Positions 8,888 through 34,556 of a stretch of DNA of 36,392 nt are shown piece after piece. Position 1 is the first letter of the stretch. Every line of letters begins with the position of its first letter. The stretch comes from Parvibaculum sp. (lineage in GTDB: Bacteria; Pseudomonadota; Alphaproteobacteria; Parvibaculales; Parvibaculaceae), in contig JAHBYM010000014.1 of the NCBI GenBank assembly GCA_019635975.1, positions 1 through 36,392 on the forward strand, written 5' to 3'. Under the pieces are notes generated by a model that saw only the letters and a program-made list of their open reading frames with translations, was not told the DNA's origin and searched no databases. The position numbers and the translations under genes were made by a program.

Positions 8888-8984
8888 TGGCGCGATCATG
8901 CAGCGGCGTCCGTTAAGGGGCGGTAAAACGGATCGTTTTTTTTCTAATCATTTCGAAAAATTTTCAGATCGTTCCAAAAAGGAA

Positions 8985-19070: not shown

Positions 19071-19254
19071 GTTCGGCGGTGCGCCGGCGGTTTCCGCTTG
19101 AGACGGCTTGGGAACGCGGCGGACACAACGCTTCATTAACCAAAGTGCGAGAGCATCGCCCTTGTGTCGCGAAGAAGCCGCGATGCGACGAATACAGGGC
19201 AAAGGACAGCGCGGGCGAAGGCACCGCGACGTCCGCGAGGTGGGACATTTCAAA

Positions 19255-19761
19255 ATGGCTGCAGTCGACGCCGAAGTCGCCGAAGAAGAAGACGAGGACG
19301 TTTCCGAAGCGCCGGCACGACGCCGGATTGCCGGCAAGGTGCTTGTTCTCTATGTCGCGTTGCCAGTGCTGGTTCTGATCGGCGCCGGCGCCGGGCTCTA
19401 CATGTCGGGCATTTTCGGCGGATCCGGGGAAGAAAAGCCCGTCGAGGAAGTGGTCGCGGATCCGGTGTTCTACGATCTGCCGGACTTTCTGGTGAACCTC
19501 AGCGGTCCGCCGCCCGCGCACTACCTCAAGATGCGCGTGTCTTTACAGGTCGTTGATGCCGAAGCCGTCAAGCGTCTCGAACTCGAGATGCCGCGCGTGC
19601 TCGACGGATTCCAGACGTTCCTGCGCGATCTCCGGCCGGAAGACCTCGAAGGCTCGCAAGGCATGCTCAGCCTGAAGGAAGAGCTGATGCGCCGCCTGAC
19701 GCTTGCGACCCAGAAGCCGCTCGTCACGGACATTCTGTTCCGGGAAATCATCGTTCAGTAA
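19255..19761 (+). CDS. fliL: Flagellar basal body-associated protein FliL
   Basis: 168-residue single-pass inner-membrane protein that rings the stator and supports motor torque. An acidic N-terminal tail (EEEDEDVSE) precedes the transmembrane helix (about 28-50). The periplasmic domain has the typical start FYDLPDFLVNLSG, then HYLKMRVSLQV, and ends PLVTDILFREIIVQ, a standard FliL tail. The frame is open upstream, but the ATG at 19255 has GAGGTGG before it. It is followed after 19 bp by fliM. Confidence 0.93.
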   Translation: MAAVDAEVAEEEDEDVSEAPARRRIAGKVLVLYVALPVLVLIGAGAGLYMSGIFGGSGEEKPVEEVVADPVFYDLPDFLVNLSGPPPAHYLKMRVSLQVVDAEAVKRLELEMPRVLDGFQTFLRDLRPEDLEGSQGMLSLKEELMRRLTLATQKPLVTDILFREIIVQ

Positions 19762-19780
19762 AGGGTTCGGGGACCGTTTT

Positions 19781-20875
19781 ATGGCCACCACAGACGTCAA
19801 GGACAACGACACGGACGCGCTTGCCAATGCCGCGCAAGCGGCGGCGAAAGCGCCGGAGCGCGTGCTCAACCAGGACGAAATCGACAGTCTGCTCGGCTTT
19901 GAGGTCGAGGACGGGCAGACGCAGGACCGGCACGGCATCGATGCCATCGTCAATTCGGCGCTCGTGTCCTACGAGCGGCTGCCGATGCTCGAGATCGTGT
20001 TCGACCGGCTCGTCCGTTTGATGACCGTGTCGCTCCGGAATTTCACCTCCGACAACGTCGAAGTGTCGCTCGACAACGTCTCGTCGATCCGTTTCGGCGA
20101 TTATCTCAATTCGATTCCGTTGCCTGCCATTCTTGCCGTTTTCCGCGCGAAGCAGTGGGACAATTACGGCATGTTTACGGTCGACTCGAACCTCATCTAC
20201 TCGATCGTCGACGTCTTGCTGGGCGGGCGGCGCGGCACGGCGGCGATGCGCATCGAAGGCCGACCCTATACCACCATCGAACTCAATCTCGTGCAGCGCA
20301 TGATCGAAGTCGTGCTGCAGGACGTGCAGGCGGCGTTCGAACCCTTGTCGCCGGTGACGCTCGAACTCGACCGCATGGAAACCAATCCGCGGTTCGCGGC
20401 GATTGCGCGTCCTGCGAATGCGGCCATTCTCGTCAAGCTGCGCGTCGACATGGAAGATCGCGGCGGGCGCATCGAACTGATGTTGCCCTATGCGACGCTG
20501 GAACCGATCCGCGAATTGCTGTTGCAGATGTTCATGGGCGAGAAATTCGGCCGCGACACCATCTGGGAAGGGCATCTTGCGACCGAGCTCTGGTCGACGC
20601 GGGTTCCGGTCGAAGCGGTGCTCGACCAGCAGCAGCTCACGCTGCGCGATGTCATGGATTTTCAGGTCGGCCAGACGCTGATGTTCAACAACACGCCTGA
20701 CGGCGCGATCGATATGCGCTGCGGCGGGGTGCATGTGGCGACCGGCCGAATGGGGCGCGTCGGCAATCATGTCGCGGTGCGTATCGAGCAGGCAATCCGC
20801 AAGCACAGACGGGTGGCGCTTGTGGAACCGGAAAAAAAGGCCGTTGAATCCAGAATTACGGGAGCGTTCAAATGA
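19781..20875 (+). CDS. fliM: Flagellar motor switch protein FliM
   Basis: 364-residue C-ring switch protein that binds CheY-P and FliG. The CheY-binding peptide is LNQDEIDSLLGF (29-40). The middle domain has the GG motif VLLGGRRGTA, and the C-terminal SpoA-like domain contains LTLRDVMDFQVGQTLMFN. A frame extension upstream overlaps fliL and is not needed. The 4-bp ATGA overlap with the next gene shows tight coupling. fliG and fliN are not in the window. Confidence 0.96.
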   Translation: MATTDVKDNDTDALANAAQAAAKAPERVLNQDEIDSLLGFEVEDGQTQDRHGIDAIVNSALVSYERLPMLEIVFDRLVRLMTVSLRNFTSDNVEVSLDNVSSIRFGDYLNSIPLPAILAVFRAKQWDNYGMFTVDSNLIYSIVDVLLGGRRGTAAMRIEGRPYTTIELNLVQRMIEVVLQDVQAAFEPLSPVTLELDRMETNPRFAAIARPANAAILVKLRVDMEDRGGRIELMLPYATLEPIRELLLQMFMGEKFGRDTIWEGHLATELWSTRVPVEAVLDQQQLTLRDVMDFQVGQTLMFNNTPDGAIDMRCGGVHVATGRMGRVGNHVAVRIEQAIRKHRRVALVEPEKKAVESRITGAFK

Positions 20876-21321
20876 CCGTTCTTCAGGCCGTACCCTTCGG
20901 CGTTCTCCTTGAGGGCATCGTCTGTCTCTTCCTGATCGCGACCATCGCCTATTGCGCGATGCTGGATCGCCGCCTGCGGGCGATGCGGTCGGGTCAGGAC
21001 GGTTTGCGCGGCCTCATCAACGATCTCAACACCGCGACGGCGCAAGCCGCAGCGGCCATCAACAACCTGAAATCGGCGAGCGCCGCCACCGGCGAAGATC
21101 TCGGCGAGCGCGTCCGGCGCGCCCGGGGGCTTGCCGATGAACTGGCTTTGATGCTCGAGGCTGGCGATCGCATTGCGGACCGGCTCGAGCGGAACGACAA
21201 ACCGCCGCTTGTGCGGCCTGCCGCGGGCCCGCGCCAGACACCGGCGGGCGTTTCCCGCGACACCAGCAATCCGTCCCGTGCAACGCATCCGCTGCTCGAT
21301 GCGCTGAAGCGGGCACGTTGA
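20872..21321 (+). CDS. Small membrane protein of the fliLM operon (DUF6468-type, PflI-like)
   Basis: 149-residue protein with one N-terminal membrane helix (about 8-29, FGVLLEGIVCLFLIATIAYC). A basic stretch (LDRRLRAMRSG), a helical/coiled-coil part and a Pro/Arg-rich cytoplasmic tail follow. Its start overlaps the fliM stop by 4 bp. The layout and position match the DUF6468 family of alphaproteobacterial flagellar operons. In Caulobacter the flagellum-positioning protein PflI is a bitopic membrane protein with a Pro-rich tail which, as I recall, is encoded next to fliM. The PflI link is inferred from layout and context, not alignment. Confidence 0.7.
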   Translation: MTVLQAVPFGVLLEGIVCLFLIATIAYCAMLDRRLRAMRSGQDGLRGLINDLNTATAQAAAAINNLKSASAATGEDLGERVRRARGLADELALMLEAGDRIADRLERNDKPPLVRPAAGPRQTPAGVSRDTSNPSRATHPLLDALKRAR

Positions 21322-21334
21322 GGCAACCGAAATC

Positions 21335-22039
21335 ATGATGGACCGTCTTCGACTGCTGCCGATCGTCATACTCTGCGCCTCGATGCTGCTGGGACTGAAG
21401 CTTGCCGACCTGGCGACGGGTGGCGCCGGCACGCAATCCTTTGCGGCGATAACGGTCGCGCGGGCGGAAGGGATCAAGGCCGAGGCGGCCGTGGCCGAAG
21501 AGGTGGCGCCGGACGAAGGCGGGCAAACGGCTGCGGCCGATGAAGCGTTGCGGCCGGAGGACTTCGCGGCGCAGGGCGACCCGCGGCTCAGCAAGGCGGA
21601 AATGTCGGTGCTCGAAAGCCTCGCGGCGCGGCGTGCGGAGCTCAACAAGCGGGCCGAAACGCTCGATATGCGCGAGCAGGTTCTGGCAGCGGCCGAAAAA
21701 CGCGTCGAGGACCGGATCGCCGAGCTCAGGGAGATCGACCGGAAGATCAACAGCCGGATCGCCGAGATCGACGCGGCCCAAGAGGAACAAATGGCTTCGC
21801 TGGTCGCGATGTACGAGGGCATGAAGCCCAAGGACGCTGCTCGGATTTTCGAACGCCTCGACATGGGCGTACTGCTCGATGTCGTCAAGCGGATGCAGCC
21901 GCGCAAGATGTCGGCCGTGCTGGCCGCGATGGACCCGGTGGTGGCCCAGGACCTGACCGTCGAACTGGCGACCGGCGAGCGCCTGGTCGACATGCCGGTG
22001 CCGGAAGCGGCCCTGCCGGTGGACAAAAATGCCAGCTAA
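21335..22039 (+). CDS. MotE-like flagellar motility protein
   Basis: 234-residue protein with an N-terminal membrane anchor or signal (about 6-24), an Ala/Glu-rich linker and a long coiled coil (about 88-150, SVLESLAARRAELNKRAETL onward). A C-terminal MgtE-N-like helical domain (MYEGMKPKDAARIFERLDMG, then VLAAMDPVVAQDLTVELA) completes it. This is the architecture of rhizobial MotE, a periplasmic chaperone that stabilises the stator-regulating protein MotC. It lies 13 bp after the PflI-like gene. A second start codon (MM) directly follows the first. The family is fairly sure; the partner in this organism is unknown. Confidence 0.8.
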   Translation: MMDRLRLLPIVILCASMLLGLKLADLATGGAGTQSFAAITVARAEGIKAEAAVAEEVAPDEGGQTAAADEALRPEDFAAQGDPRLSKAEMSVLESLAARRAELNKRAETLDMREQVLAAAEKRVEDRIAELREIDRKINSRIAEIDAAQEEQMASLVAMYEGMKPKDAARIFERLDMGVLLDVVKRMQPRKMSAVLAAMDPVVAQDLTVELATGERLVDMPVPEAALPVDKNAS

Positions 22040-22060: not shown

Positions 22061-22075
22061 TTAAGCACCGTTTAA
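22061..22075. promoter_or_regulatory. CtrA box upstream of the large TPR gene
   Basis: TTAAGCACCGTTTAA followed by C is a perfect TTAA-N7-TTAA(C) box. It lies between the MotE-like stop and the large gene, about 80 bp before the latter's start. A separate, cell-cycle-controlled promoter is likely. Confidence 0.72.
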
Positions 22076-22155
22076 CCGACAGGCCCGTAGACTGCGCTGA
22101 TGCGCGGCAGAAAGCCGCGTGGTTTTGGCAGAAGCTGCAGGGGCGTGCGCCGGGT

Positions 22156-25100
22156 GTGAGCGAAATCCATCGACATATGACGGGCGGCACAAGACATCGC
22201 AACCTTGCGGGTGCGATGGCGTTTGCCCTTCTCCTGCTGTTGGCGCCGGCCGGCGCCTGGGCGCAAGCCGCGCTCGACCGTCTCGATCTCAGCGAGAATG
22301 ACGGCTATGGCCGCATGATCTTCTCGTTTCAGGGGGCGGTGCCCAAACACCGGATCGAAATCAATGCCGGCGTCATGGTGCTGGCCTTCGACCGGGCGGT
22401 TTCGGTCAATCTCGACGAATTCGCGCGCCAGATGCCGCGCTTCATCGCAACGGCGCGCCAGGACAACGACGGCAAGACGCTGCGCTTCGCACTCAAGGCC
22501 GATTTCTGGAGCGATGCGAAGCAGGCCGAGAAATCGCTTTACGTCGACTTGATGCCGTCGCAATGGACCCATGCGGCGCCGCCGCTGCCGGCCGAGGTTC
22601 TGGCGCGCATCGCCGCCGCCGCCGAGGAGAAAAAGGCCGCGGAGGAAGCCAAGGCCGTCGCCGCGGCGCAAGGCATCGTCGAACCGGATGTGCCCTTGCC
22701 CGATCTCGATGTGCGCGTTGCGCGCCAGGAAGGGATTACGCGTCTCGTCTTCGACTGGAACCAGCCGGTGCTCTATTCGCTGGTGCAGCGGCAGGGGCTC
22801 GCGACCATCACCTTTGACCGGACGGCGACCGTCGATCTGTCATCCTTGCGCGTCGATCCGCCGCCTTATCTCAGCCACGCGACCGCCATCGAACACGAGG
22901 GACGGCTTGCGGTGATTTTGACGCTGAAGCCCGGTGTCGTCGTCAACGACTTCCGCGAAGAGATGGCGGTCGTGCTCGATCTCAAGCCGGGACAGGCGCG
23001 GGACAATGCCGAGGCACCTGTTGCCGCCGGTCCGACGGACATTCGTCCGCAAGCCGCTCAGCCCGAAGCGAAAGAAGAACCGGCGGAAGAAGAAATAGCG
23101 GTCGCCGGCGAGGTTGGAACCGACGCGGTTGAGGCCAAGGCCGAGGACGCGTCTGCTGCCGATGTGGCGCCGTCGGCCGCGGCCGGACCGATGCCTGCCG
23201 GCGTGAGACCGGTCGGCGAGGCGGTCGCCAGCGTTCGCGCTGGGCGCGCCGGCACCGACATTGTGGTGTCCTGGCCTGAACCCGTCGGCGCTGCGGTGTT
23301 CGAACGCGCGGACCGTTTGTGGATGGTCTTCGATGAGGCTTTGCCGATCGACATCGCAGGTCTGGTCTTTGCGGCCGAGGCCGGATCGCCGGCGCCGTTC
23401 GGCGATCCGGAAGTCGTTCGTTTCGACGGTGGCGTGGCGCTCGTTCTGCCGTTGCATGAGCGTGTGCTTGTCAGCGTCGTCGAGGAAGGTGCCGACTGGC
23501 GCATCTCTGCCGGCGAAACGCTTCAGACGACCGGGCGGCCGATTGCGATTTCGCGCAACTGGCGTGAGGACGGGCGCGGCAGCGTGACGTTCGATCTCAA
23601 GGCGACGCGCAAGATCTTCAAGTTCGAGGACCGGCGGGTCGGCGACATGCTGATCGTCGCGACGGCGCGGGGCCCATCGCAGGCCGTTCAGACACCGCAC
23701 AGTTTTGTGGAATTTCAGGCGCTCCAGACGTCGCAGGGTATCGCGATCGTGCCGATCGCCGACGATCTCATCGTCGCCGCGGCGCCCGACAATGTCGTGG
23801 TGTCGCGACAGGACGGGTTGATGCTTTCGGGCGATGCGGGCAGCGCCGTTTCCGGCGGCATTCTGGCCAGTACTACCGCGCTTCCGGCGGTGATGGAGTT
23901 CGACGCCTGGCGGGTTGCGCCGGGAAGAAACTTTATCGAGCGGCGTCAATATTATCTGGATCGCCTGGCCGTGGCGGTGACGCAGGAGGTCGGCGCGGCG
24001 CGCTTCGACTATGCGAAGTTTCTGCTCGGCTACGGACTCGCGCCGGAAGCGCTGGCGGCGCTCAACGCGGCAGCAATCGAAGACACCGCGCTGGTCAAGG
24101 ACCCTGCCTTTCGCGGGGTCAAGGGCGTCGCGGAGGCGATGAGCGGACGCTATGTCGACGCGATCCGAAGCCTCAGCGGCAACGGGCTCGACAACATTCC
24201 GCACGCTGCGGTCTGGCGCGGCCTCGCACGGGCGCAGCTTGGCCATTGGGATGCGGCGCGCGCCCAGTTTGCGCTGGCGGGCGCGGTCATGGATTCATTC
24301 GACGACGGTTGGAGGACAATTTTCCGGGCGCGCGCAGCCGAAGCCGCGTTGACGGCCAACGACGTCGATGGCGCAAGACATCATGCGGCGGCGTTCCCCG
24401 AAGAACCGGTAGGGCGCCGGGCACAGGCTGAAATCATGCTTGTCGATGCATTGATCGCCGACCGGCTCGGCCGCACCGACGAGGCGCTTGTCCGCTACGA
24501 CCGAGCCATCGAGAACGGATATCCGCCGATTGCGGCGCGGGCCCGCTTCGGCAAGGCGGTTCTGCTCAACAAGACCGGGGTGATCGACAACGATGCGCTG
24601 GCCGAAGAACTCGAGAGCCTGCGTTACGCCTGGCGCGGCGACGCGCTGGAGCTCGAGGTGCTGAGCAAACTGGCTTCGCTTCATCTCCAGTCGGGCGGTA
24701 TCGTCGATGCGCTGAAGATCATGCGTATTGCGACCGCGAACTATCCCGACAGCGATCACGCGCACCGGATGAACATGCAGATGTCCGACCTTTTTGCCGA
24801 TTTCTTCCTCGGCGAGGACGCGAGCCACATGACGCCATTGCAGGCGCTGGCCTTTTTCGAGAGCTTCAAGGATCTGACGCCTATCGGCCAGCGCGGCGAC
24901 GAGATGATCCGTCACCTCGCCGAGCGTCTTGTTGAGGCAGACCTGTTGCTTCAGGCGGCGCAGCTTCTCGACTACCAGGTCGCCAACCGGCTGCATGGCG
25001 GCGTTGCCAAGGCGCAGGTCGCGGCGCGGCTTGCAGCCATTCTGCTGCTCGACGACAAGCCGGAAAACGCGCTGGCGGCGTTGCGCGCCACCAAACAGAA

Positions 25101-25587
25101 CCTGCTGCCCGAGGCGTTGGCGGAGCGGCGGTTGTTGATCGAGGCGCGGGCGCTTGCCGAGCTGAAACAATATGACTACGCGCTCGATCTGCTTGAGGAG
25201 CGAAACGATGCGCTGTCCACGATTTTGCGGGCCGATGTGTTGTGGCAGGCGGGCCGTTGGGAAGAAGCGGGCGGCGCTTTCGAGGCCATGCTCGGCGATA
25301 GCTGGAAGACCGAAGCCGCGCTTTCGGACGATATGCGCTTGCAGGTGATGCGGGCGGCCGTGGCTTATTCGCTGGCCGGCGACGAAGACGGGCTGTCGCG
25401 CATGCGGACCAAGTTCGGCGAGGCCATGAGCCGCAGCGCGGATGCCGGCGCCTTCGCCGTGGTTTCCGATCCGATCGTCGAGCAGGGTGTTGCGTTCCGC
25501 GAACTGGCCAGCCGCATCGCCTCCATCGACACGATGGAGCGGTTCGTGACCTCGCTGAAGGACAACGCGTCGTCGGCGATCAACTAG
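22156..25587 (+). CDS. Large exported protein with N-terminal beta repeats and C-terminal TPR-like helices
   Basis: 1143-residue protein, function not recognised. A Sec signal (GAMAFALLLLLAPAGAWAQA, cut near 37) implies export. At least three, probably four, related beta segments follow (about 40-90, 180-232, 354-405 and 465-503). They share the pattern small-R-hydrophobic-F, then PV, then a FD-x-acidic/hydrophobic end (LVFDWNQPVLYSL, DIVVSWPEPVGAAVF), somewhat like AMIN-type wall-binding domains. An acidic Ala/Glu-rich linker lies near 285-345. From about 600 onward the protein is TPR-like helix pairs (FRARAAEAALTANDVDGARH). The first start is GTG; an ATG 21 bases later (22177) gives the same signal peptide. 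It has its own CtrA box and ends convergently with fliP. It is probably a periplasmic scaffold for motor or pole. Confidence 0.8.
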   Translation: MSEIHRHMTGGTRHRNLAGAMAFALLLLLAPAGAWAQAALDRLDLSENDGYGRMIFSFQGAVPKHRIEINAGVMVLAFDRAVSVNLDEFARQMPRFIATARQDNDGKTLRFALKADFWSDAKQAEKSLYVDLMPSQWTHAAPPLPAEVLARIAAAAEEKKAAEEAKAVAAAQGIVEPDVPLPDLDVRVARQEGITRLVFDWNQPVLYSLVQRQGLATITFDRTATVDLSSLRVDPPPYLSHATAIEHEGRLAVILTLKPGVVVNDFREEMAVVLDLKPGQARDNAEAPVAAGPTDIRPQAAQPEAKEEPAEEEIAVAGEVGTDAVEAKAEDASAADVAPSAAAGPMPAGVRPVGEAVASVRAGRAGTDIVVSWPEPVGAAVFERADRLWMVFDEALPIDIAGLVFAAEAGSPAPFGDPEVVRFDGGVALVLPLHERVLVSVVEEGADWRISAGETLQTTGRPIAISRNWREDGRGSVTFDLKATRKIFKFEDRRVGDMLIVATARGPSQAVQTPHSFVEFQALQTSQGIAIVPIADDLIVAAAPDNVVVSRQDGLMLSGDAGSAVSGGILASTTALPAVMEFDAWRVAPGRNFIERRQYYLDRLAVAVTQEVGAARFDYAKFLLGYGLAPEALAALNAAAIEDTALVKDPAFRGVKGVAEAMSGRYVDAIRSLSGNGLDNIPHAAVWRGLARAQLGHWDAARAQFALAGAVMDSFDDGWRTIFRARAAEAALTANDVDGARHHAAAFPEEPVGRRAQAEIMLVDALIADRLGRTDEALVRYDRAIENGYPPIAARARFGKAVLLNKTGVIDNDALAEELESLRYAWRGDALELEVLSKLASLHLQSGGIVDALKIMRIATANYPDSDHAHRMNMQMSDLFADFFLGEDASHMTPLQALAFFESFKDLTPIGQRGDEMIRHLAERLVEADLLLQAAQLLDYQVANRLHGGVAKAQVAARLAAILLLDDKPENALAALRATKQNLLPEALAERRLLIEARALAELKQYDYALDLLEERNDALSTILRADVLWQAGRWEEAGGAFEAMLGDSWKTEAALSDDMRLQVMRAAVAYSLAGDEDGLSRMRTKFGEAMSRSADAGAFAVVSDPIVEQGVAFRELASRIASIDTMERFVTSLKDNASSAIN

Positions 25588-25600
25588 GGCAGGGTCGCCG

Positions 25601-26365
25601 TCAGGGGCCGAAGCTCTGGACCAGACTTCCCGCGATCAGCGACCAGCCGTCGACCAGCACGAAGAAAATCAGCTTGAACGGCAGTGAGATGATGATCGGC
25701 GGCAGCATCATCATGCCCATCGACATCAGCACCGACGCGACCACCATGTCAATGATGATGAAGGGCAGGAAGACCAGAAAGCCGATCTCGAAGGCGCGGC
25801 GCAACTCGCTGATCATGAAGGCGGGAATGAGCACCTGAAGGCCGATGTCGGTTGCCTGTTCGGGTTCTTCGATGTCCGACAAATCGACGAAGAGTTTCAG
25901 GTCTTGCTTGCGCACCTGCGAGAGCATGAAGGTCTTGAACGGCTCGCTCGATTTCTCGAAAGCTTCGCCCATCTCCATTTCCTGATTCATCAGGGGCAGA
26001 ATGCCGGCGTCGTAGGCCTTGGTGAAGGTCGGCGCCATCACGAAGGCCGTCAGGAAGAGCGCGAGGCTGACCAGAACCGCGTTCGGCGGCGATTGCTGCA
26101 TGCCCATGGCGGTCCGGAGCAGCGACAGCACCACGATGATGCGCACGAAGGACGTGACCATGATCAGGATCGAGGGCGCAAGGCTCAGGATCGTCACCAG
26201 CGCGACAATCTGCACCACATGGTCGGTAAGGCCGAGGCCGTCGGAGAGATCGACGCGGATCTGGTTGGCGAAAGCCGGGTCGGCAAGACCGAACGACAGA
26301 AGCACGGCAAAGAGGCCGGTCAGCAGGCGCTTGCCGCGCGCCGACATAACGGGAAGACGGGTCAC
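25601..26365 (-). CDS. fliP: Flagellar export gate protein FliP
   Basis: 254-residue core membrane subunit of the flagellar type III export gate. It has a cleavable signal peptide (about 10-33), then transmembrane helices. Conserved motifs are LAPSILIMVTSFVRIIVVLS, LRTAMGMQQSPPNAVLVSLA and the C-terminal VASVLMSMGMMMLPPIIISL with PFKLIFFVLVDGWSLI. The GTG start at 26365 overlaps the fliO stop by 4 bp and has AGGAG 9-10 bases upstream, so it is preferred over the in-frame ATG at 26347. The frame is open further upstream through fliO, but that part is a shadow. Confidence 0.94.
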   Translation of the reverse strand: MTRLPVMSARGKRLLTGLFAVLLSFGLADPAFANQIRVDLSDGLGLTDHVVQIVALVTILSLAPSILIMVTSFVRIIVVLSLLRTAMGMQQSPPNAVLVSLALFLTAFVMAPTFTKAYDAGILPLMNQEMEMGEAFEKSSEPFKTFMLSQVRKQDLKLFVDLSDIEEPEQATDIGLQVLIPAFMISELRRAFEIGFLVFLPFIIIDMVVASVLMSMGMMMLPPIIISLPFKLIFFVLVDGWSLIAGSLVQSFGP

Positions 26366-26733
26366 GCGCGGCGCTCCTTGATGAAATCGACGATACGCTG
26401 GAACTGCAGAACGGGCGCCGGCTGGACCGCCGCACCGGAGGCCGCGTCGGCCAGCGCCACGGGCGCCGGCGCGTCGATGCCGGTCTCGATCAGCAGGGAT
26501 TGATCGCCGCCGAGAAGGATCAGATGTTCCTTGCCGTCGCGGCGGATCAACATCAGGCGGTGTTTCGCATCGACGGGTTTTACTTCGACGATGGCGAGAC
26601 GCTTCTGGCTGCCCGGCGTCACGATGCCGCCGGCCGCAAAGCCCATGCGGCGCGCAACGAAGGCGCACAGGCCGATCAGGCCGATGATGAAGACCAGTGC
26701 TGCGACGAACCGCAAAATTTCGGAGATTTCCAT
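26362..26733 (-). CDS. fliO: Flagellar biosynthesis protein FliO
   Basis: 123-residue membrane protein that assists assembly of FliP into the export gate. One N-terminal transmembrane helix (FVAALVFIIGLIGLCAFVAR, about 9-28) is followed by the cytoplasmic domain with KRLAIVEVKPVDAKHRLMLI (44-63), then RRDGKEHLILLGG, the FliO signature. It is first in the fliO-fliP pair and starts about 70 bp downstream of a perfect CtrA box. Confidence 0.9.
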   Translation of the reverse strand: MEISEILRFVAALVFIIGLIGLCAFVARRMGFAAGGIVTPGSQKRLAIVEVKPVDAKHRLMLIRRDGKEHLILLGGDQSLLIETGIDAPAPVALADAASGAAVQPAPVLQFQRIVDFIKERRA

Positions 26734-26803
26734 TGCCCGTAAACCCCACCTGAGGGCGGCCGCCCGGCCGGCCCTGTCATGGGAAGAATTTGCCGCCTCA
26801 GGC

Positions 26804-29321: not shown

Positions 29322-30404
29322 ATGTCGGAACATGACGATTCGGAAAAAACAGAAGAACCAACACACCGAAAACTGGAAGAAGCCCAGAAGAAGGGCGATG
29401 TCGTCAAGAGCCAGGAAGTCAGCACCTGGTTCGTGATGCTGGGCGCCGCGATTGCGATTGCGCTGATGGGAACGTCGACGGTGAGTTCGCTGTCGGGCAC
29501 GTTCAAGATATTCCTCGCGCAGCCCGAAGCCATTCCGATGGACCCCGATCACCTGCGCAAGATCTGGCTCGACATCGGCGGCGCCGCATTCGGCGCGTTG
29601 CTGCCGCCATTGGCGATCCTCATCCTGGCGGCGCTGCTCGGAAATATCATCCAGCACGCGCCGGTTTTCACGGCCGACAGGATGAAACCCAAACTTTCAA
29701 AGATTTCGCCCAAGGAAGGGCTGAAGCGTCTCTTCGGTGCGAAAAGCCTGATGAATCTCGCCAAGGGCATTGTCAAGCTCTCGGTTGTCGGCGTCGTTGC
29801 CACGCTGATCATCTGGCCCGAGCGCGACCGGCTGGCCTTGATGATGACATGGGAGATCGCCCAGCTTCTGCCGCTGGTGCGCGAGCTGGCGTTGAAGATG
29901 TTTGCCGGCGTGATTGCGGTGATGACGGTCGTTGCGGCGCTCGACTATCTCTTCGAGCGGCTGCAATGGATGAAGAAGCAGCGCATGACCGTGCAGGAGG
30001 TCAAGGACGAATACAAACAGATGGAAGGCGATCCGACGGTCAAGGCGAAGCTGCGCCAGATCCGCGTTGAGCGCGGGCGCAAGCGCATGATGGCCGCCGT
30101 GCCGACATCGACCGTCATCATCACCAACCCGACCCATTATGCCGTGGCGCTCAAATACGAGCAGGGCATGGGCGCGCCGGTCTGCGTCGCCAAGGGCGTC
30201 GACGCGGTCGCCTTCCGCATCCGTGAAATGGGTATCGAGCACGACGTACCGATCGTCGAAAATCCGCCGCTCGCCCGCGCGCTGCATGCGACCGTCGAGA
30301 TCGACCAGGAAATCAACCCGGAACACTACAAGGCCGTCGCCGAGGTGATTGGCTATGTGATGCGGCTTAAGGCTAAGATGACCGGCGGACGCGGCCGGAA
30401 GTGA
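29322..30404 (+). CDS. flhB: Flagellar export switch protein FlhB
   Basis: 360-residue substrate-specificity switch of the flagellar export apparatus. The N-terminus DDSEKTEEPTHRKLEEAQKK is diagnostic. Four transmembrane helices follow. The cytoplasmic domain has the autocleavage motif NPTH (N269-P270) in TVIITNPTHYAVALKYE; cleavage switches export from rod/hook to filament proteins. It ends with a basic tail. It is last in the flgB-flhB operon, 92 bp before cckA on the same strand, so cckA could be partly read through. flhA is not in the window. Confidence 0.97.
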   Translation: MSEHDDSEKTEEPTHRKLEEAQKKGDVVKSQEVSTWFVMLGAAIAIALMGTSTVSSLSGTFKIFLAQPEAIPMDPDHLRKIWLDIGGAAFGALLPPLAILILAALLGNIIQHAPVFTADRMKPKLSKISPKEGLKRLFGAKSLMNLAKGIVKLSVVGVVATLIIWPERDRLALMMTWEIAQLLPLVRELALKMFAGVIAVMTVVAALDYLFERLQWMKKQRMTVQEVKDEYKQMEGDPTVKAKLRQIRVERGRKRMMAAVPTSTVIITNPTHYAVALKYEQGMGAPVCVAKGVDAVAFRIREMGIEHDVPIVENPPLARALHATVEIDQEINPEHYKAVAEVIGYVMRLKAKMTGGRGRK

Positions 30405-30439
30405 TTCGGGCCGGTTGTCGGCTGTGCGCCGTGTGTTTC

Positions 30440-30479
30440 GACGGCAAACAAGCCGACGACAAACCCGTTGACGGCAAAC
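30440..30479 (+). repeat. Three direct repeats at 15-bp pitch upstream of cckA
   Basis: GACGGCAAAC, GACGACAAAC and GACGGCAAAC start at 30440, 30455 and 30470, exactly 15 bp apart. They lie between flhB and the chosen cckA start. Because 15 is a multiple of 3 they are also in frame with cckA (DGKQA-DDKPV-DGKPD), so they could be part of a longer N-terminus if a GTG at 30401 is used. Otherwise they are leader or operator repeats. Confidence 0.6.
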
Positions 30480-30496
30480 CAGACCGGGAGTTGGGA

Positions 30497-33031
30497 ATGG
30501 CCGAGACGCCGGCCGATTATGCCGACACGATCGATGGCGCCGCCGCCGATCGGCAGGCGGCGGACGGCAGTGCCGGCCGGGTGTTGCCGGCGCGGCGCTG
30601 GATCGTCCTTGGCGGCGTCGCAATCGGTGTCGTCACGACATTGCTCGATACAGCCGGCGTTCACGCATTCGGCGTGCCGGGCGCGTTGACCGTGTTCGGT
30701 CTGCTCGCGATTGCGGGCGCCGTTCTCTACAGCTTTTCCGGCAGCAATGCCGACGCTTTGAGCCGGTCGCCGCAGGCCGCCGGCGAGGCGCTGAACGCGC
30801 TGCCCGATCCCTGCTATGCCACCGACCGGCGCGGTTCGATCCTGTTTGCCAACGAGGCCTACCGGATGCTGGCGGGCGGCTTCGACCTTGATCGGCCGGC
30901 GCCGCTGGAGCGGCTCCTGGCGGGGCGGGGCGACATGGCGGAAGTGGCCTTCCGGCTGGCGCAGGCCGCGCGCACCGGCTTTGCCGCCGAGGAAGATGTC
31001 CGTTTCGAGACGCCGGGCGGCGTCGAGCGTCTCTACAAGGTGGTGGTGCGGCCGCTCAGCGGTGCCGATGGCGGCGCCGTCTGGCTGTTCCGCGACCTGA
31101 CGGTGGAGCGCGACCGCGCCGAACTCGCCGAGCGCACGCACAAGCGGTCCATTTCCTACATTGAGAACGCCCCTGTCGGTTTCTTCGCCGCCGATGCCGA
31201 ACGCGGCGCCATCGTCTATCTCAACCCGACGCTGGGCCGCTGGCTCGATGTCGAACCGGCGCATGTCACCGGGCGCGGCCTGACGCTTTCCGATCTGGCG
31301 CTTGGCGAAGCGCCGGCGCTGACCCACGGGGAAGGCGGTCCGGATGGCGAAATGACACCGCTTGATCTCGATCTGAAGGGACCGGAGGGCCGCGCCGTGC
31401 CTGTCCGCATCATCCGCAGCCGGCTCGAGGGTGTGCGCGGCCGGCCGGGGCACATCTTTGCGCTGGTGCTCAACCGGACGACCGGCGACAAGGCCGAGGT
31501 GACGGCCCGCGACGCCGAGATGCGGTTTGCGCGCTTCTTCAACAATGCGCCGATCGGTATTGCGACGGTCGATCAGGACGGCCGGATCGACAATGCCAAC
31601 AGCGCCTTTGTCGGCTATGTCGGCGAGAGCGTCGAACGCGGCATGCGGCTTGCCGATCTCGTGGCCGAGGACGACCGGCCGGCCGTTGGCGAGTTGCTGG
31701 CGCGCGCACGATCCGGCCAGTTGTCAGGCGCCGCGGTCGATATTCACCTGCAGCGCAATGCCGAGCGGGTCGGCCAGCTCTATGCGGCGCGGGTCGATGC
31801 GGGCGAGGGCGCGGCGCTGGTCGTCTATCTGGTCGACGCGACCGAACAGAAATCGCTCGAGATGCAGTTCGCGCAGTCGCAAAAGATGCAGGCCGTCGGT
31901 CAGCTCGCGGGCGGCGTCGCGCATGATTTCAACAATCTGCTGACGGCGATCATCGGCTTCTGCGACTTGCTGCTGGCGCGCCACCAGGCGGGCGATCCGT
32001 CTTTCGCCGACGTGGTGCAGATCAAGCAGAACGCCAATCGCGCCGCCAACCTGACGCGCCAGTTGCTCGCCTTCTCGCGGCGGCAGACCCTGCGCCCCAA
32101 GGTGTTGTCGTTGACGGACGCGCTGGCCGAATTGCAGAACCTGCTGGCGCGGCTGCTCACCGAAAAAGTCGAACTGAAGATCGTGCATGGCCGCGATCTC
32201 GGTCTCGTCAAGGTCGACCAGAACCAGCTGGAGCAGGTCGTCATCAATCTCGCCGTCAATGCGCGCGACGCGATGCCGGACGAGGGCGGGCGTCTGACGA
32301 TCCGCACCGCCAATGTGTCGGAGGCCGACAGCCGGGCGCTCGATCACGCGCTGATGCCGCATGGCGAATATGTGCTGATCGAGGTTGCCGATACCGGTCA
32401 CGGCATTCCGAAGGAAAATCTCGGCAAGATTTTCGAGCCCTTCTACACGACCAAGGATCCCTCCAAGGGCACGGGGCTCGGCCTTTCGACGGTCTATGGC
32501 ATCGTCAAGCAGACGGGCGGCTTCATCTTCCCTTATTCGACGGTCGGCAAGGGCACAACCTTCCGCATCTATCTGCCGCGCTATGTCGAGACGGCGGCCG
32601 ACCGGAAGCAGGAGGAAATCTCGCTCGCCGCCGCGCCGCCGGAACCGTCGGACCTCACCGGCAAGGGAACGATCCTGCTGGTCGAGGACGAGGACGCCGT
32701 GCGTACCTTTGCGGCGCGGGCGCTGGCGACGCGCGGCTACGAAGTGCTGCAGGCCGAAAGCGGCGAGGCGGCGCTTGCGGTGGTCGATGCCCATGAGGGC
32801 CGTATCGATCTCGTGGTGTCCGACGTCGTGATGCCCAACATGGACGGGCCGACCATGGCCAAGGAGCTGAAGCACAAGCTGCCGGACACGCCGATCATCT
32901 TCGTGTCAGGCTATGCGGAAGATGCCTTCGCCAAAAGCCTCGATCCCGAACAGGAATTCCACTTCCTGCCCAAGCCTTTCTCGCTGAAGCAGCTTGCGGC
33001 GGCCGTCAAGGAAGTGATGGGGAAGAAGTGA
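30497..33031 (+). CDS. cckA: Hybrid histidine kinase CckA
   Basis: 844-residue bifunctional hybrid kinase/phosphatase that feeds phosphate via ChpT to CtrA and CpdR. Two membrane helices (about 35-51 and 60-80) are followed by PAS-type sensor regions (about 100-465; NAPVGFFAADAERGAIVYLN and NNAPIGIATVDQDGRIDNAN). HisKA carries His476 in GGVAHDFNNLLTAIIGF. The ATPase domain has NLAVNARDAMPDEGG, DTGHGIPKENLGKIFEPFYT and GTGLGLST. The C-terminal receiver (about 715-840) has Asp776 in VVSDVVMPNMDG. The ATG at 30497 has GGGAG close by; a GTG overlapping the flhB stop (30401) would add 32 residues. The GTG of the next gene overlaps the cckA stop. Confidence 0.92.
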   Translation: MAETPADYADTIDGAAADRQAADGSAGRVLPARRWIVLGGVAIGVVTTLLDTAGVHAFGVPGALTVFGLLAIAGAVLYSFSGSNADALSRSPQAAGEALNALPDPCYATDRRGSILFANEAYRMLAGGFDLDRPAPLERLLAGRGDMAEVAFRLAQAARTGFAAEEDVRFETPGGVERLYKVVVRPLSGADGGAVWLFRDLTVERDRAELAERTHKRSISYIENAPVGFFAADAERGAIVYLNPTLGRWLDVEPAHVTGRGLTLSDLALGEAPALTHGEGGPDGEMTPLDLDLKGPEGRAVPVRIIRSRLEGVRGRPGHIFALVLNRTTGDKAEVTARDAEMRFARFFNNAPIGIATVDQDGRIDNANSAFVGYVGESVERGMRLADLVAEDDRPAVGELLARARSGQLSGAAVDIHLQRNAERVGQLYAARVDAGEGAALVVYLVDATEQKSLEMQFAQSQKMQAVGQLAGGVAHDFNNLLTAIIGFCDLLLARHQAGDPSFADVVQIKQNANRAANLTRQLLAFSRRQTLRPKVLSLTDALAELQNLLARLLTEKVELKIVHGRDLGLVKVDQNQLEQVVINLAVNARDAMPDEGGRLTIRTANVSEADSRALDHALMPHGEYVLIEVADTGHGIPKENLGKIFEPFYTTKDPSKGTGLGLSTVYGIVKQTGGFIFPYSTVGKGTTFRIYLPRYVETAADRKQEEISLAAAPPEPSDLTGKGTILLVEDEDAVRTFAARALATRGYEVLQAESGEAALAVVDAHEGRIDLVVSDVVMPNMDGPTMAKELKHKLPDTPIIFVSGYAEDAFAKSLDPEQEFHFLPKPFSLKQLAAAVKEVMGKK

Positions 33032-33574: not shown

Positions 33575-34556
33575 GGGGAGTGAATTGCTATATTTCGGTC
33601 ATAGGAGATGACGCCCATGACCAAGATGACCCTCAAGACCTTCAACGCCCGCTTCCCGGACGATGACGCCTGTCTGGACCATCTCATGGCGGTCCGCTAC
33701 GGCCACAAGTTCCATTGCGGCACCTGTGGCGCGGACGCCAAGCATCACAGGGTCAAGGGCCGCCGCTGCTATGAGTGCGAGTTCTGCGGCCATCAGGTCT
33801 ACCCGACCGCCGGGACGCCTTTCGAGCGCACCCGCACAAGCCTCCGGGACTGGTTCTTCGTCATGTACCTGTTCACGACGACCCGTAACGGGGTCAGCGC
33901 GAAGGAAATCCAGCGCCAGATCGGAACCACCTACAAGACGGCATGGCGCATGGGCCACGAAATCCGCAAGTACATGGGTTGGGTTGACGGTGACGACCCT
34001 ATCGGCGGCGACAAGATCGTTGAGGCCGACAAGGCTTTCATCGGCGGCAAGGACAAGCGGGGCCATGACGACAAGACCGTGGTTCTCGGCATGGTCGAGC
34101 GGGGCGGCGACGTGATTACCCGCATCGTCGCAGAGCGCGGCGGCTTCTTTGTCGTCCCCCGCATTATCGAGCATGTGAAGCCCGGTTCGCGGATCGCAAC
34201 CGACGAAGCCGGTGCCTTCAAGGGCCTCGCGGATGAGGGTTTCCGTCACGGGACCGTCAATCACTCCAAGAAGGAATATGTCAGAGGCGACGTGCATACC
34301 AATTCAATCGAAGCCTTCTGGTCCAGCCTCAAGCGCGGGATTTCGGGGACCCACGTTTGGGTTTCGCCTCAGCACTTGCAGAAGTATCTCGGCGAGTTCG
34401 AGTTCCGCCATAACCTTCGGAAGCGCCCGCACCTGATGTTCGAGCTTCTTTTGCAGGCTTTTCCTCGCCCCTGACCATCTTGGACAGGAGAAGATCGAAA
34501 CGAGAGAACGCCATTTACCTGTTTCCTTCCTAGCCGGTTGGCTAACAATATCACCC
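33575..34556 (+). mobile_element. Probable IS1595-type insertion sequence (ends tentative)
   Basis: A transposase gene lies between imperfect inverted ends. The left end begins GGGGAGTGAATTGCTA and the right end, read inward on the minus strand, begins GGGTGATATTGTTA; with one or two gaps GTGA-ATTG-TA and a downstream TAGGA agree. No clear 8-bp target duplication was found, so the exact boundaries are uncertain. It could be an old copy, or the true right end could lie beyond the next gene. Confidence 0.4.
33617..34474 (+). CDS. IS1595/ISXO2-family transposase
   Basis: 285-residue DDE-type transposase. An N-terminal zinc ribbon has C34xxC37 and C54xxC57 (HCGTCGADAK, YECEFCGHQVY). The catalytic region has the first Asp in VEADKAFIGG, the second in IATDEAGAF and the family HTNSIEAFWSSLKRG near the third carboxylate. 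The ATG at 33608 touches the AGGAG, so the next ATG, 9 bases on, is chosen. The gene is intact, with no visible frameshift, so the element may still be mobile. It lies between the cckA-linked kinase and an unrelated membrane protein gene, in a segment unlike the surrounding flagellar DNA. Confidence 0.9.
   Translation: MTKMTLKTFNARFPDDDACLDHLMAVRYGHKFHCGTCGADAKHHRVKGRRCYECEFCGHQVYPTAGTPFERTRTSLRDWFFVMYLFTTTRNGVSAKEIQRQIGTTYKTAWRMGHEIRKYMGWVDGDDPIGGDKIVEADKAFIGGKDKRGHDDKTVVLGMVERGGDVITRIVAERGGFFVVPRIIEHVKPGSRIATDEAGAFKGLADEGFRHGTVNHSKKEYVRGDVHTNSIEAFWSSLKRGISGTHVWVSPQHLQKYLGEFEFRHNLRKRPHLMFELLLQAFPRP

Follow-up and report, generated by a model that had tools for sequence, protein, structure and literature searches.

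A probable MotK/FssB-type flagellar spoke protein with a predicted CtrA promoter of its own in Parvibaculum

The window analyzed in this study is the whole of a 36,392-nucleotide stretch of a Parvibaculum genome (contig JAHBYM010000014.1). It contains a flagellar cluster comprising fliL, fliM, a DUF6468 gene, motE, fliP, flgC, fliR, flhB, fliX, flgK, flagellin-type genes, and cckA. The named relatives of the window, with identities of 78-93%, comprise Parvibaculum MAGs plus a single alphaproteobacterial MAG. On the forward strand, fliL (19108-19761; PF03748, E = 1.1e-19), fliM (19703-20875; PF02154, E = 2.4e-69), the DUF6468 gene (20872-21321; PF20072, E = 1.2e-22), and a motE-like gene (21335-22039) follow one another. 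By position, in a gene order like that described in PMC10954123, the DUF6468 gene is probably pflI. The motE-like gene is assigned to the E-ring proteins of the MotE/FlgY/FlbB group; its product matched NCBIfam collar_FlbB at E = 1.7e-9, which is below the curated cut-off, and MgtE_N at E = 6e-4, and has an N-terminal hydrophobic segment followed by a charged helical stretch. Downstream of motE lies an open reading frame of 1143 codons with a GTG start (22156-25587, forward strand), which we designate a motK/fssB-like gene (motK below) for an exported flagellar scaffold protein with AMIN-like domains and a TPR solenoid. It is followed on the reverse strand by the convergent fliP (25601-26749; PF00813, E = 1.8e-80, at ORF residues 184-376), whose true start is probably near 26200. 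An IS1595-type transposase gene was observed near the end of the cluster (33608-34474).

The architecture of the 1143-residue protein was deduced mainly from structure models. Residues 1-35 (22156-22260) form a Sec-type signal sequence ending in AWA-QA, recognized by reading and by the equivalent stretch in relatives, and the full-length AlphaFold2 model (mean pLDDT 80, 30-row alignment) has a signal helix at the N-terminus. Residues 36-556 were modeled separately, and this model gave the AmiC and PilQ matches of the AMIN domain. In the models, the first beta domain, residues 38-136 (22267-22563), is AMIN-like and falls within a match to the PilQ N domains of 3jc8. The second, residues 178-279 (22687-22992), is an AMIN domain that superposed on residues 30-145 of Escherichia coli AmiC (4bin; Z 13.7, rmsd 2.2 Å over 102 residues) and matched Neisseria meningitidis PilQ (4av2) with a Z of 11.5. 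A disordered linker (residues 280-349, 22993-23202; pLDDT <50) leads to two further beta domains (residues 356-551, 23221-23808), for which the structure search gave no specific match, a result that does not imply a new fold. The C-terminal half is a TPR-like alpha solenoid of about 31 helices (residues 582-1133, 23899-25554), seen in the models and in weak TPR matches. Additionally, the AMIN-like domain PF24837 was detected in 9 of 30 relatives of the protein.

Searches of Pfam, NCBIfam, and PDB sequences with the protein gave only weak or generic TPR matches, and the PDB sequence search contained nothing beyond generic TPR or chance matches. The structural-homology search that had been proposed in the initial annotation was informative: the top PDB match of the full-length model in Foldseek was 9hmf_K, a chain from the periplasmic flagellar scaffold of Campylobacter jejuni (E = 2.7e-10), although the superposition was loose (TM 0.14-0.19); other large TPR proteins came next (E of about 1e-7), and the TPR proteins among the structural matches included PilF, MamA, and SprE. 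We infer that 9hmf_K is the motor spoke PflA because its 773-residue chain matches mature PflA 16-788 (PMC12222027, PMC11870540). In C. jejuni, PflA is a spoke that runs from the E-ring to the stator rim (PMC12222027, PMC11870540), and its N-terminal domain was termed AMIN-like in the PflA paper by comparison with PilQ. Within this loose superposition, the two proteins share an N-terminal AMIN-like beta-sandwich, a disordered linker, and a TPR superhelix. However, PflA has one beta-sandwich rather than four beta domains, is about 770 residues long, and works with PflB, and no sequence similarity between the two proteins was detectable.

The initial annotation had placed a perfect TTAA-N7-TTAAC between the motE-like gene and the large exported protein, and this was confirmed. 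The CtrA full site, TTAAGCACCGTTTAAC at 22061-22076 on the forward strand, is located past the motE stop codon (22039) and before the start of motK, and it is the only perfect match in the window, where 0.02 were expected. In the whole genome, 17 perfect matches were found, compared with 8 for a reversed-pattern control (approximately twofold), so the match alone is weak evidence. Conservation was assessed in an alignment of 24 promoters, consisting of the window and 23 loci of the genus, anchored on the box; the box in each locus was picked by best match and was found at the expected place every time. The proteins encoded at these loci were as little as 46% identical to that of the window. 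The box was perfect in 22 promoters and had one mismatch in the other two (L026 and L027), which have TTAG in place of TTAA. Eight of the nine fixed positions were kept in 24/24 promoters and the ninth in 22/24, whereas the N7 spacer averaged approximately 73% identity to the commonest base and the flanks approximately 53% (53-54%). Because the fixed bases are conserved while the spacer and flanks drift, we consider the box convincing despite the weak genome-wide excess. Beyond the genus, a perfect box at the equivalent place was found only in genome G031 and, on the opposite strand, in G147. When one mismatch was allowed, the window contained 12 boxes against 0.5 expected, and the box upstream of motK is one of a set within the flagellar cluster. 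One-mismatch CtrA-like boxes were also observed at 8912, 10293, 12238, 14401, 26803, and 26884, and several of them lie in flagellar intergenic gaps, such as that before fliX and that between fliP and the flgB-flgC region. None of the 12 boxes lies just upstream of fliL.

A probable -10 element, TAGACT (22088-22093, forward strand), lies 11 bp past the box, and the corresponding CTAnnCT element is kept 10-11 bp after the box among the aligned promoters of the genus. If TAGACT serves as the -10 element, transcription would start at about 22100, placing the box with its 5' base near -39. In Caulobacter, the ctrA P2 promoter has a CtrA full site at -39, and full sites located around -35 are mostly activating (PMC4287350). 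The predicted motK promoter thus has a TTAA-N7-TTAA full site near -35 that is conserved in relatives, and genes for both CtrA and CckA are present in the genome. The CtrA receiver was found in the same assembly (C152:2998) with 90% identity to a CtrA receiver probe; a PF00486 search had missed this chromosomal CtrA. The gene of the CtrA phosphorelay kinase, cckA, is in the window itself (30401-33031, forward strand; NCBIfam HisKinCckABruc, E = 3e-271, 902 bits against a cut-off of 1000), and it directly follows flhB in the flagellar cluster. Judged from promoter conservation and geometry, CtrA control of motK, as suggested in the initial annotation, is strongly supported, with binding itself predicted. 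The accompanying suggestion that such control implies timing with the cell cycle goes further than the box, which does not by itself entail such timing.

The motK leader has an inverted repeat, CGCGGC-AGAAA-GCCGCG (22103-22119, forward strand), that is conserved among the nearer members of the genus. Within 22103-22150, the CGGC-AGAAA-GCCG repeat is followed about 21 bp on by a second GGCAGAA, an arrangement also kept in the closer members of the genus and occurring once in the whole genome. The repeat is possibly an operator or a leader element. Considered as RNA, it had no excess folding stability (z 0.02), and its covariation rested on few changes (two double-change pairs, not above shuffles), with a score that 7 of 500 shuffles also attained; given these results, an RNA element was dropped. 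A short upstream ORF at 22100-22159 was likewise rejected, its frame not being conserved among relatives in a reading of the alignment. Our literature search found no paper giving a consensus for FlbD/ftr binding.

To describe the distribution of the family, a profile built from 30 relatives was used to search 289 sampled alphaproteobacterial genomes. The family was detected in 160 genomes, and many genomes of the class matched the profile strongly; a few weak matches may be generic TPR proteins. FliM was present in 152 of the 160 family-positive genomes, and conversely the family was present in 152 of the 168 FliM-positive genomes (about 90%), a co-occurrence with a Fisher p of 9e-52 when genomes are treated as independent despite their shared ancestry. 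Strong family members accompanied by no detected FliM were found in four genomes (G063, G133, G285, and G301), perhaps reflecting incomplete assemblies. Nearly every locus read has the order fliL-fliM-DUF6468-motE-motK-fliP. A detailed reading of 20 loci showed fliL-fliM-DUF6468-motE ahead of motK in each case where the contig extended far enough, mostly with a convergent fliP on the downstream side. The position of motK after motE in a fliL-fliM-pflI neighborhood is shared by the window and other families. In a previous study, BLAST searches could follow MotK no further than Paracoccaceae and Roseobacteraceae (PMC10954123).

Outside the genus, 13 of the 18 loci in which both motE and motK were found have 1.4-4.4 kb of genes between them (L064, L065, L066, L067, L069, L073, L074, L077, L078, L079, L080, L082, and L083). 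These gaps always contain two short MotB-like genes, as judged by reading and, for three loci, by Pfam (for example, L064:5426-6852 and L069:4989-6328), and some also hold cheY- and cheZ-type genes. One member of the pair lacks the proton-carrying Asp and the other has the MotB plug motif; there is no adjacent motA, and the OmpA part is often degenerate or undetected. Such pairs next to motK were seen across many alphaproteobacterial families. Canonical motA-motB genes are located elsewhere in these genomes. In Parvibaculum the pair is absent, and the CtrA promoter lies between motE and motK instead; in the genus set, consisting of the window genome and 26 others, there is one MotB_plug gene per genome (27/27). 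The pair is likewise missing at the locus in G028, G031, G090, G147, and G211. Losing the pair appears to coincide with a closing up of motE on motK, as a correlation only. One could imagine that MotK spokes were first built with a pair of non-conducting MotB-like proteins and later became simpler in Parvibaculum, where MotK came under a CtrA switch of its own, with stator docking timed independently of ring assembly, but we regard this history as rather doubtful.

The features of the window protein were compared with published descriptions of related proteins. MotK of the Cereibacter (Rhodobacter) sphaeroides Fla2 system is likewise exported, with an AMIN-like N-terminus and a mainly TPR body (PMC10954123, PMC13023049), and its gene lies by motE in a fliL-pflI-motE group of a CtrA-controlled flagellar system. 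In contrast, the Parvibaculum protein has two AMIN-like and two more beta domains; its gene has its own CtrA box, whereas the box in C. sphaeroides is upstream of fliL2, and in that species motA2 is located between motE and motK. C. sphaeroides MotK and MotE reside in the periplasm and interact with one another and with MotB2; rotation requires both proteins, and neither is present in cells without CtrA (PMC10954123). Caulobacter FssB (CC_2058) similarly has a Sec signal and TPRs, and its gene directly follows the motE homologue CC_2059; on the features compared by description, it differs only in species. The Caulobacter delta-fssB mutant is flagellated but paralyzed, and FssB acts via the stator (PMC7885107). 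Sinorhizobium meliloti MotC and Borrelia FlcB are also TPR partners of the MotE/FlbB ring protein, MotC being set apart by description as having no AMIN domain (PMC13023049). In a 2026 review, the MotE/FlgY E-ring has MotK, MotC, CC_2058, and PflA as its partners (PMC13023049).

The window gene shows every feature of the MotK/FssB group that could be tested: a Sec-type signal (by reading), an N-terminal AMIN-like domain (in the model), a TPR solenoid as the C-terminal half, and a place after motE. We therefore consider it highly probable, on the basis of fold, neighborhood, and published descriptions, that the protein is the Parvibaculum member of this group, a PflA-like spoke promoted by CtrA, and a periplasmic spoke made from its own CtrA promoter is the likeliest mechanism. 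It had been guessed in the initial annotation that the protein could be a periplasmic scaffold for the motor, stator, or pole. The motor and stator side of this guess agrees with the AMIN domain, the top fold match to PflA, the co-occurrence with FliM, and the neighborhood, and also with the phenotypes reported for its nearest described counterparts (PMC10954123, PMC7885107). Nothing in the analysis spoke for a pole-organizing role.

Three alternatives were weighed. The protein could be mainly a chaperone or stabilizer of MotE or MotB instead of a built-in spoke, as in the Sinorhizobium MotE-MotC pair, where MotC is stabilized by MotE (PMC13023049), and the stability of C. sphaeroides MotE does need MotK (PMC10954123). 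Nevertheless, MotK is found at flagellated poles in dependence on MotA2/MotB2 (PMC10954123), and the fold of the motK product resembles a built-in spoke, so we regard this alternative as improbable. Slightly less probable still is a pole- or envelope-organizing TPR/AMIN protein (an amidase activator, pilus, or Tol-type protein) that is a bystander in the cluster and whose timing by CtrA serves the cell cycle. Division proteins and type IV pilus proteins do carry AMIN and TPR domains, as the AmiC, PilQ, PilF, MamA, and SprE matches illustrate, and polar functions are under CtrA control in Caulobacter; however, the nearly one-to-one occurrence with FliM across the class and the conserved neighborhood point to a flagellar part rather than a general envelope factor, and the published relatives are tied to the stator. 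Regarding the promoter, a chance TTAA-N7-TTAAC, with motK expressed solely by read-through from fliL-motE, would fit the modest genomic excess over the control and the reading of C. sphaeroides motK from the fliL2 operon promoter (PMC10954123). We consider this very unlikely in view of the fixed bases, which are invariant or nearly so across the 24 aligned promoters amid drifting surroundings, and the conserved, correctly spaced -10 element.

Returning to the CtrA-promoted spoke, the mechanism could operate as follows. The motK gene would be transcribed from its own CtrA promoter (22061-22076) alongside the other flagellar genes that CtrA controls in the cluster, and its product would be exported to the periplasm. 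There, the N-terminal AMIN-like domains may contact peptidoglycan or neighboring motor proteins, while the long C-terminal TPR solenoid would extend inward as far as the MotE ring, which surrounds the MS-ring, and would grip MotB; stators could thereby be recruited and unplugged. The spoke would in this way link the MotE ring with peptidoglycan and the stators, and the protein probably keeps the torque-generating units in position. We infer that CtrA binds the box, that the protein is periplasmic and contacts MotE, MotB, and peptidoglycan, and that its loss would cause paralysis.

A gene called a hypothetical protein in the public annotation we saw can now be named and given an architecture and a predicted promoter. 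The earlier remark that its product is none of the standard flagellar parts is correct for the E. coli/Salmonella list, but not for the literature of 2021-2026, in which such proteins have been described. The window protein belongs to this already described spoke kind (MotK/FssB/PflA type), and the result is one of annotation, not of a new kind of system. Spokes of this type occur in about 90% of the sampled FliM-positive alphaproteobacterial genomes, more widely than the BLAST range of PMC10954123. Because the predicted CtrA promoter is lineage-specific, it becomes testable in Parvibaculum whether stator docking may be timed separately from ring assembly.
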